Source: an uncultured Rickettsiales bacterium
Lineage (GTDB): Bacteria; Pseudomonadota; Alphaproteobacteria; Rickettsiales; Deianiraeaceae
DNA length: 60,084 nt
Reading direction: 5' to 3'
NCBI GenBank assembly: GCA_905480015.1
Contig: CAJQOT010000046.1
Location: 1-60,084 of the forward strand
Within the stretch, counting starts at the first letter, position 1, and each line of letters starts with the position of its first letter. Both the position numbers and the translations under genes were made by a program. Positions 27,995 through 31,415 of this stretch are shown piece after piece. The notes beneath the pieces are model-generated. The model worked only from the letters and a program-made list of their open reading frames with translations, ran no database searches and was not told the origin of the DNA.

Positions 27995-28945
27995 ATGTCT
28001 AAATACAAAATATCACTAATAGGAGCAGGAGCAATTGGGGGAACCATCGCACATTTGCTGTTTATGAAAAAATATTCCGATATCATTCTTCTCGATATCA
28101 ACTCAAATGTTGCAAGGGGCAAAGCTTTAGACATTAAACAGTCGTCCGGAATGTCATCTTCCGATGTAAATATCATTGGAACCGATGATTACTCACAAAT
28201 TGACAAAAGTGATGCAATTATTATTACTGCTGGCATTCCACGCAAACCTGGAATGTCTAGAGATGACCTTATCAACACCAACGCTAACATTATTAAGTCT
28301 GTTGCGGAAAATGTTGCTAAATATGCACCAAATGCTTTTGTTACAATCATCACGAACCCTCTAGATATTATGGTTCAACACTTTCAAGAAATTTCACAAA
28401 TGCCACATCAAAAGGTTGTTGGTATGGCTGGCGTTTTAGATACTGCAAGGTTTACAACTTTTTTATCGGAAGCTCTAAATGTTTCAGCATCTGACGTTAA
28501 AACATTTGTCCTTGGTGGTCACGGAGATACAATGGTTCCACTCATAGACTACACAACCATTGGAGGTATACCTTTAAAACAATTCATTCAAAATGGTGAC
28601 ATCTCGCAGAAAGATGTTGACGATGTAATTCAGCGAACTCGTCAAGGTGGTGCAGAAATTGTTTCCCTTCTTGGAAATGGTTCTGCGTTCTATTCACCAG
28701 CACACTCTGCGATTGAAATGGTTGAATCTTACATATTTAATAAACGCAGAATACTACCTTGTGCATCATATCTTCAAGGTCAATATGGTGTAAATGGTGT
28801 ATATGTTGGTGTTCCTGCTATAATAGGTGAAAATGGTATTGAAAAAATTCTTGAAATTGACCTATCGCAAACAGAAAAAGATATGATGGATAGCTCAATT
28901 AAATCTGTTCAAAACTTACTTGTTACACTAAAAAAATCAATTTAG
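27995..28945 (+). CDS. mdh: Malate dehydrogenase (LDH-like)
   Basis: Mdh interconverts malate and oxaloacetate with NAD in the TCA cycle. The 316 residues show IGAGAIGGTIA for NAD binding, with an Asp at the end of the second strand (LLDIN). The substrate loop Arg pair is in GIPRKPGMSRDDL, and the active-site His is in GGHGDTMVP. It is the LDH-like, tetrameric type usual in alphaproteobacteria. It sits 2 bases after rpsE, so it is probably co-transcribed with ribosomal genes. Confidence 0.93.
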   Translation: MSKYKISLIGAGAIGGTIAHLLFMKKYSDIILLDINSNVARGKALDIKQSSGMSSSDVNIIGTDDYSQIDKSDAIIITAGIPRKPGMSRDDLINTNANIIKSVAENVAKYAPNAFVTIITNPLDIMVQHFQEISQMPHQKVVGMAGVLDTARFTTFLSEALNVSASDVKTFVLGGHGDTMVPLIDYTTIGGIPLKQFIQNGDISQKDVDDVIQRTRQGGAEIVSLLGNGSAFYSPAHSAIEMVESYIFNKRRILPCASYLQGQYGVNGVYVGVPAIIGENGIEKILEIDLSQTEKDMMDSSIKSVQNLLVTLKKSI

Positions 28946-29317: not shown

Positions 29318-29341
29318 TAAGTATATAGTTACCCATATCTT
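29318..29341 (+). repeat. 24-base copy of the IS1595 right junction
   Basis: These 24 bases, ending GTTACCCATATCTT, match positions 31324-31347, at the right end of the IS1595-family element, with one mismatch and in the same orientation. Part of the match (CATATCTT) is the target duplication. The rest duplicates the last 16 bases of the element and so looks like the end of a second, lost copy. Confidence 0.55.
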
Positions 29342-29364
29342 GGTAATTACCCCAAAATGACACT

Positions 29365-29397
29365 AAAAAAGCTTGACATAATATCAAGTTCTTTTTT
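29365..29397 (-). terminator. Terminator-like hairpin at the end of the KilA-N gene
   Basis: On the minus strand an A-run and CTTGA, a 7-base loop and TCAAG are followed by C and TTTTTT. The A- and T-runs can extend the stem. It overlaps the stop codon of the KilA-N gene and, being nearly symmetric, could also act on plus-strand transcripts. Confidence 0.5.
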
Positions 29398-30334
29398 GAG
29401 GCAATATAATTTTTTCAAGTTTTTCCTCAAAATTATCATTGTTATTGAATTCTAGGTTATCGTTTTGTATTGTTTCAATTATTTTGCTTTCTTCCGTATT
29501 TTGTATATATTTAATTTTATGAGGTTTAATTTTAGTGCTGTCTATAAGTAATATCGCTTTTTGTAAAAAAGGTAAGGCTTTAATATCTCTCTTTTCAAAG
29601 TATTTAATAGCCTTTGTTTGAATCCACACATTATGAAAATGTTCTTTAAAATCTATTAATAGCTTATTTGGGTATAGCCTTGCAGGGTATGTTCTTCCAT
29701 CTTCGTATTCATGTTGATAAGTTGGAAAAGTTTTAGGGTCTACCTTCTTGACTTTACGTAACCAATCGGAGAACATTCTGCCTTGTGAAATATCTGGTAT
29801 CATATTTTCAGGTAAATTATACCCTTGTTTTTCCATTGGTGCTATTAAATCTATGGCTATCTCATTAAGCATCGAAAAATATCCGTGTGGAATTTTATGT
29901 TTATTTGCCATATATCTTTGCAAATGATATGGTAGATTGCTTACCACCGGAAGCTTGCCACTCATCCAGTCAAGTACCCATTTTGATACTTGTACTGCAA
30001 ACTTAGGTGAAAGCCATTGTGCGAGATTTATTGCAACTTGTGGATGTACCCAAGTACCTTGAAATCGTGGATCTCCACCTTTAATAATATGTACCAGATC
30101 CGATGTGTTAATGTGCATATCGGAAGATAAATGTTGTAAAAACTCTTGTGTGCTATCCAGTCGATTCCAACCAGCAAATTTTTTATTAACACTGTTACAA
30201 AGTTCGGTGGCATTAATATATCCATCACTTACCCTTTGATGGAATAAATTTCTTCCCCCTTTTTCTTCTATGGAATACTCCGTTGTTTCAAATCTATCAT
30301 ATAATGATAAACCTACCATACTATTATCACTCAT
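29384..30334 (-). CDS. KilA-N domain protein carried by the IS element
   Basis: The 316 residues carry a KilA-N DNA-binding domain (about 30-125): SDGYINATELCNSVNK, a helix, and GTWVHPQVAINLAQWLSPKFAVQVSKWV. A second conserved region (about 145-215) has HGYFSMLNEIAIDLIAP and SQGRMFSDWLRK, seen in larger KilA-N/P63C-type phage and viral proteins. The C-terminus is Asn/Glu-rich. KilA-N proteins are usually found in phages and large DNA viruses. Here the gene is 15 bases downstream of the transposase and inside the element ends, so it appears to be a passenger. Its function is unknown. Confidence 0.85.
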   Translation of the reverse strand: MSDNSMVGLSLYDRFETTEYSIEEKGGRNLFHQRVSDGYINATELCNSVNKKFAGWNRLDSTQEFLQHLSSDMHINTSDLVHIIKGGDPRFQGTWVHPQVAINLAQWLSPKFAVQVSKWVLDWMSGKLPVVSNLPYHLQRYMANKHKIPHGYFSMLNEIAIDLIAPMEKQGYNLPENMIPDISQGRMFSDWLRKVKKVDPKTFPTYQHEYEDGRTYPARLYPNKLLIDFKEHFHNVWIQTKAIKYFEKRDIKALPFLQKAILLIDSTKIKPHKIKYIQNTEESKIIETIQNDNLEFNNNDNFEEKLEKIILPQKRT

Positions 30335-30349
30335 ACTTTTATTAATAAA

Positions 30350-31255
30350 CTAACCAATTAAATTTTTATACATTACTCTTTTATTCTCACAACCGCTGAA
30401 CCAAATATCAAAATTACAAAAATCATCATTTGCTTTCCCATTACATCTAAACGCAAATTCATTCAAATAGTTGTTTATGTGCTTTTTGCTTGTCCAGTGG
30501 TAAATACCATAAATACCTCTTTTAACAAGCGACCAAAAGCCTTCAATAGTATTTGTGTGAATTTTAAATGCTACCCTTGAATCTAATCTTACACATTCAT
30601 TTGCAGAGTGTTTTATTGTGTAATGCTTATAGTTATTCTTGAGGTCTTTATACGCATTGTAAGTGTCAGTTACTATTGTTGAGCTTGTTTTTACATTACA
30701 ACCAATCTTTGGCAATAAGCACTCTTTACTTGGATTATCAATTTGCATTGCTTTCACTTGCTTTGTGTCTCTATCCACCAAACCAATTACAGCGGTTTTT
30801 TGACTTTTGAATTTATTTACCGTGTGCTTGTTTCCTTCCTTATCCCCAAAATACGCTTCGTCAATTTCAGTTACACCATCAAAAGGAGAGTTACCACCTT
30901 TCATAACCTCTCTAATTCTATGCAACATAAACCAAGCCGTTTTTTGTGTAACACCAATATATTTTGCAAGTTGAATACTAGAAATACCTTTCTTCATTGA
31001 AGTAAAAAGATATATTGAAACAAACCATTTAAAAAGTGGTAAACGGCTTTCTTGAAAAATAGTACCAATACGAATTGTAAATTGTTTTTTGCAATCAAGA
31101 CAAGTATAAAGAACATTATTTGAATGAATACAAATATTTTTTGCATTACAATGCGGACACACTGGAGTTTTCACGCTACCCCATCTTTTTTCTGCCAACC
31201 AATCTCTGCAAGCTTTTTCAGTGCCAAACTTCATTTGAAAATCAAGCAAATTCAT
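30350..31255 (-). CDS. IS1595-family (ISXO2-like) transposase
   Basis: The 301-residue transposase has an N-terminal zinc ribbon, CPHC (33-36) and CLDC (52-55), followed by the family's KKQFTIRIGTIF and LAKYIGVTQKTAWFMLHRIR segments. The catalytic domain has Asp132 in TEIDEAYFG, Asp197 in IVTDTYNAYK, and N235/E238 in HTNTIEGFW. The reading frame is intact. It would catalyse DDE-type transposition of its own element. The neighbouring IS200/IS605 relic belongs to a different superfamily. Confidence 0.92.
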   Translation of the reverse strand: MNLLDFQMKFGTEKACRDWLAEKRWGSVKTPVCPHCNAKNICIHSNNVLYTCLDCKKQFTIRIGTIFQESRLPLFKWFVSIYLFTSMKKGISSIQLAKYIGVTQKTAWFMLHRIREVMKGGNSPFDGVTEIDEAYFGDKEGNKHTVNKFKSQKTAVIGLVDRDTKQVKAMQIDNPSKECLLPKIGCNVKTSSTIVTDTYNAYKDLKNNYKHYTIKHSANECVRLDSRVAFKIHTNTIEGFWSLVKRGIYGIYHWTSKKHINNYLNEFAFRCNGKANDDFCNFDIWFSGCENKRVMYKNLIG

Positions 31256-31415
31256 AGGATTTATAATAACTATATATTAGTTATATACCTAGTTATTTAA
31301 AAGTTAAGTATTATTTTATGTGTTAAGTATATAATTACCCATATCTTTAAAATTTTCTTGACAATTTAAAATATATAGCCTCTTTTCTTGTAAGAAAGTA
31401 ATTGCGTGTAAGAAA

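Follow-up and report, generated by a model that had tools for sequence, protein, structure and literature searches.

Background

Defence genes are known to ride on mobile elements and to lie in defence islands, and IS1595 elements with passenger genes are in themselves known. BstA of prophage BTP1 belongs to an abortive-infection family (Owen et al. 2021, PMC8585504) that has so far been described as a prophage-encoded defence, and homologues in which only one domain is conserved exist (PMC8585504). The IS1595 family is usually described with a single transposase gene (PMC8101967).

In the stretch of DNA analysed here (60,084 nucleotides; the window), a complete IS1595-family element carries, next to its transposase gene, a gene for a BstA-like KilA-N protein. 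This protein has the two-domain plan of the BstA family, in which a KilA-N or KilA-N-like N-terminus is followed by a matching C-terminal domain, but it is borne by an insertion sequence instead of a prophage, it has a classical KilA-N domain at its N-terminus where BstA has a KilA-N-like version, and it ends in an extra C-terminal tail. The KilA-N proteins of phages vB_BPM-V3 and vB_EcoS-673R7 differ from it in being phage-borne and in lacking the tail. The element itself has the zinc ribbon, DDE domain, GG ends and 8-bp duplications of the IS1595 family, and differs from the usual description in having a passenger, as do most of the relatives surveyed. As with the immunity genes of mobile elements and defence islands in general, an immunity gene would here move with a mobile element, the carrier in this case being a minimal IS, about 2 kb long, that has room for one or two passenger genes. 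No earlier report of an IS-borne KilA-N or BstA protein was found in the open-access literature searched.

Structure of the element and its ends

The features of the element and of its immediate surroundings, by window position, are the following.

29318 to 29333, reverse strand: end of a second IS1595 element, decayed apart from this, GGTAACTATATACTTA, which directly adjoins the shared duplication
29334 to 29341: target duplication on the passenger side, CATATCTT
29342 to 31339, reverse strand: complete IS1595-family element of 1998 bp, transposase followed by BstA-like KilA-N passenger, with ends GGTAATTA and the 8-bp duplications outside
29342 to 29349, forward strand: 3' terminal repeat, of which only GGTAATTA agrees with the 5' end before the sequences diverge (CCCCAAAATG...)
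29364 to 29388, reverse strand: intrinsic terminator, CTTGATATTATGTCAAG plus a T-run, which overlaps the stop codon of kilA
29384 to 30334, reverse strand: passenger, KilA-N/BstA-family protein of 316 aa, starting 15 bases past the tnp stop
29387 to 29506, reverse strand: tail at the C-terminus (about residues 277-316), homologous with that of unrelated passengers from related IS1595 elements
29540 to 29932, reverse strand: BstA-type C-terminal domain, about residues 135-265, from PADLOC, PHROG 6287, hhalign and the predicted structure
29960 to 30244, reverse strand: KilA-N DNA-binding domain, residues 31-125, with Mbp1/APSES as nearest solved fold
30350 to 31255, reverse strand: IS1595/ISXO2-type transposase of 301 aa, intact, with zinc ribbon and DDE domain
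31324 to 31339, reverse strand: 5' terminal repeat GGTAATTATATACTTA, common to other elements of the same genus and family
31340 to 31347: target duplication on the transposase side, CATATCTT

The transposase matches Pfam DDE_Tnp_IS1595 (E=2e-33), NCBIfam IS1595 (188 bits, cut-off 75) and Pfam Zn_ribbon_IS1595 (PF12760; 28.6 bits, cut-off 25.4), an N-terminal zinc ribbon being a criterion for all IS1595 groups except IS1016, and its acidic residues are conserved in A3. Terminal inverted repeats starting with GG and a duplication of 8 bp, both features of the family, were found as well. The two flanking 8-mers are identical, both ends read GGTAATTA inwards, and 29334 to 31347 spans exactly the element with both of its target duplications; none of 200 shuffles of the flanks gave a pair of sites with an 8-bp duplication and 8 matching end bases. 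An earlier note on this DNA had placed the KilA-N gene between the transposase and the left end, inside perfect 8-base duplications and with a terminator of its own, and it was right on both counts, as seen from the coordinates, the pair of CATATCTT sequences, and the hairpin with U-tract that overlaps the kilA stop (fold z=-3.2).

The terminal repeats of the window element agree in their first 8-9 bases only, as against 14-20 of 20 in related elements. Since the agreement is so short and a foreign element end abuts the duplication, the 3' end may derive from another lineage, and the poor match implies that the window copy may no longer move. The arrangement in which two IS1595 ends abut with one 8-bp duplication between them (window 29318-29341) recurs at L066 771-796, in contig C17 of this genome, and looks as though a copy had newly inserted exactly next to an older one.

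Joint mobility of transposase and passenger

A single pair of ends, bounded by a target duplication, encloses both tnp and kilA, and in genome G382 an equivalent pair of genes has transposed jointly to several sites. This genome holds four copies, more than 99.7% identical, of a 1904-bp element consisting of tnp and a gene for a KilA-N/BstA-type protein, three of which are bounded by different perfect duplications (TTATTTTT, TAAAATAT and AAAAATTA), in addition to a fifth copy that is broken; kilA is included in every intact copy. Related elements with other passengers in the same slot (L053, L057 and L066) also end beyond them, and decayed transposase-kilA pairs occur in the related genome G084. 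Copies ending between the two genes, which by the earlier note would speak against a passenger, were not seen among the related elements or the intact G382 copies.

The passenger protein

A Pfam search with the passenger returned KilA-N only (residues 31-125, E=2e-26), and a fold search of the PDB likewise returned the KilA-N/APSES domain only. The BstA abortive-infection family PHROG 6287, on the other hand, matches residues 34-268 (E=4.9e-59), and the PADLOC BstA model matches residues 135-252 (E=7.6e-21), that is, in the C-terminal domain. Comparison by hhalign of a profile built from 44 relatives with a BstA profile including BTP1 BstA gave 98.9% probability across 240 columns (E=3.6e-17). 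The window protein itself is about 30% identical to BTP1 BstA over 93 residues, a low value, and does not reach the full-length similarity of about 40% found for the experimentally tested homologues; we therefore regard it as a distant BstA branch and name it BstA-like instead of BstA. Its predicted structure comprises two confident domains, a disordered linker (272-278) and tail helices.

In public phage records its nearest relatives come from Proteus phage vB_BPM-V3 and Escherichia phage vB_EcoS-673R7; the identity is 58-59% across roughly residues 29-268. In the Proteus phage the gene immediately follows cI, the position that bstA has in BTP1, and a plasmid relative is found near the anti-phage gene hhe.

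IS1595 elements as carriers of passengers

A passenger of at least 95 residues is present in 61 of 65 bounded IS1595 elements (median length 2525 bp), all of which have perfect duplications and ends agreeing in 14 or more of 20 bases. The sample is not random, several KilA-N carriers having come from KilA-N searches. Among 84 passengers scanned there were nine P63C proteins, eight N6/N4 methyltransferases, seven KilA-N proteins, four D12 methyltransferases, four DUF3800 proteins and three cytosine methyltransferases, and nine passengers match BstA. In the window's own order, the other passengers include an EcoRV-like enzyme, type IIG enzymes and a PADLOC candidate. At L048 (1225-2547), an IS1595-linked SocA/Panacea-domain protein is paired with a restriction enzyme of EcoRV type, next to which no methyltransferase is obvious. 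Passengers with a P63C domain, or resembling such proteins in sequence, are frequent (L053, L323, L325, L335, L344, L348, L369, L375, L397, L400 and L440), and P63C passengers are candidate defence proteins.

With respect to KilA-N and BstA, bounded elements carrying them were found in Nitrospira (L176), Dehalococcoidia (L147) and Oscillospiraceae (L183), in viral contigs (L241, L334), and in G336 (L056) and G390 (L313). The passengers of L056, L313 and L334 are of full-length BstA type, that of L056 (E=5e-117) being 44% identical to BTP1 BstA and thus within the range of the tested homologues. Nine of the 80 KilA-N homologues ranked nearest in genome_contigs have an IS1595 transposase upstream on the same strand, with tight coupling in three, and one has it in any other arrangement. 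Single-sequence scans of the sequence collection found nothing; alignment scans did find matches. A tree suggests several captures, only two changes being forced. In six further loci from alphaproteobacteria and Armatimonadetes (L154, L158, L159, L162, L168 and L314), an IS1595 transposase lies 160-276 bases upstream of KilA-N; no ends were found there, and for this reason they were not counted as passengers.

KilA-N is thus a real passenger of IS1595-family elements, recurring in several phyla. The earlier idea of a spread among intracellular bacteria is too narrow, since the carriers include Nitrospira, Dehalococcoidia and Oscillospiraceae. IS cargo in several phyla represents a second vehicle for the BstA family and its KilA-N relatives, and may account for some of the 'prophage-independent' homologues of PMC8585504.

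A peptide tag shared by passengers

The C-terminal tail of the window KilA-N protein, about 35-40 residues long and predicted to form helices past the disordered linker, is also present in a protein of unknown type (L047) and a P63C protein (L053), and at L049 the same tail sequence appears as a free-standing ORF of 60 residues; similarity of the window tail to these three lies 7.5-9.8 SD above shuffles (z). No Pfam family covers the tag. In 64 of 145 IS1595 loci the start of an ORF, usually for a short basic peptide, lies at precisely -4 relative to the transposase stop, and passengers are often extended at the N-terminus by a peptide of this kind, for instance ..IIEPIDAPFEAVAGAVARPK.. on the BstA of L334. 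The tag is present on four IS-borne BstAs (L056, L313, L334 and L326) and absent from BTP1 BstA and from the three BstAs of L316-L318, which stand in other contexts. A count of tag against context (8 of 18 IS-linked proteins, 1 of 128 others, p=9e-8) is to be read as descriptive, because the patterns were chosen after looking at the sequences. Judging by their common pattern, the tags at the N-terminus, the ORFs that stand free and the C-terminal tail of the window protein may all be one module; the shared tag is apparently an unreported feature of cargo carriage by IS1595. Short basic ORFs overlapping the transposase stop, often by ATGA, are common in the IS1595 elements of L321-L464.

Proposed function and alternatives

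The combination of element and passenger is probably best explained as an IS1595-family transposon with a BstA-family abortive-infection gene in its passenger slot; it would be a mobile module for phage defence that acts in the manner of BstA. The transposase would carry the passenger gene between sites and replicons, the KilA-N domain would bind DNA and the BstA-type C-terminal domain would halt phage DNA replication upon infection, with loss of the infected cell and protection of its kin; both the response to replicating phage DNA and the abortive infection are inferred from BstA (PMC8585504). The host lineage would gain by retaining the element. The tail may be an element-derived peptide module, used on other IS1595 passengers too, that perhaps contacts the transposase or DNA. 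An IS-borne BstA does not replicate as a phage and might for that reason not need the prophage-type self-immunity element aba in the same way. The earlier note had offered a regulator, an anti-phage factor or an addiction factor; the anti-phage role is the best supported of the three, given the homology of the protein to the BstA family, the activity itself being deduced from that kinship. The frequency of restriction-modification and other defence families among the passengers of the 65 bounded elements also speaks for the defence interpretation. Against it count the low identity to BTP1 BstA, the classical KilA-N domain, the poorly matched terminal repeats, and the P63C, DUF3800 and other passengers without a known defence role.

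Alternatively, the passenger could be mainly a regulator that binds the ends or promoter of the element and controls transposition or host genes, its likeness to BstA reflecting only a shared ancestry among phage regulators. KilA-N is a DNA-binding fold and passengers share a tag, which would fit such a role, but the homology extends over the BstA C-terminal domain, and passengers in the same slot elsewhere are restriction-modification enzymes and not regulators, so that we consider a mainly regulatory function unlikely. It is a good deal less probable that the locus is a dying or composite remnant, neither moving nor functioning any longer, whose 3' end and kilA were acquired when a deletion joined it to an abutting IS1595 element: the unequal terminal repeats, the second element end at the shared duplication and the decay of the related G084 copies would agree with this, whereas both ORFs are intact and the perfect 8-bp duplication suggests that the present ends were used. 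It is hardly credible that KilA-N belongs to the neighbourhood or to a prophage and lies beside a transposase that alone is mobile, with an end between the genes or a chance duplication. The shortness of the 3' repeat (8-9 bases) and the variable gene order around mdh and rpmI are in its favour, but perfect duplications enclose both genes (0/200 shuffles), the G382 copies move with kilA and related elements end beyond their passenger; chance adjacency, or a KilA-N gene outside the element, is ruled out by ends, duplications and G382 copies.

If the passenger is indeed a defence gene, tiny IS1595 elements may spread immunity genes between bacteria, and their passenger slots would be a simple place to seek unknown ones. 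A wider proposal, which we put forward tentatively as possible rather than probable, is that IS1595 elements are widespread small immunity transposons in which a short second ORF, often overlapping the tnp stop, encodes a tag that becomes fused to either end of captured passengers (BstA/KilA-N, P63C, methyltransferases) and that serves one purpose in all of them, for example by tethering the cargo protein to the transposase or the element's DNA. Were this true, P63C proteins would be candidates for new defence proteins.

Genomic context of the insertion

On the right side, a -35-like TTGACAATT upstream of rpmI starts within about 10 bases after the duplication at 31340 to 31347 and is common to genomes of the same genus, and because of this the right flank of the element looks native. 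In related genomes mdh and rpmI are not neighbours, so that comparison was confined to the promoter side of rpmI and no empty site can be read. Genome sizes, together with gene content across the order, point to Rickettsiales-like bacteria. In the window, mdh (27995-28945) stands between rpsE and the rpmI-rplT pair. In two genomes of the same genus its neighbour reads instead as mnmA, and in a third as pyrF, these names having been read from the sequence.
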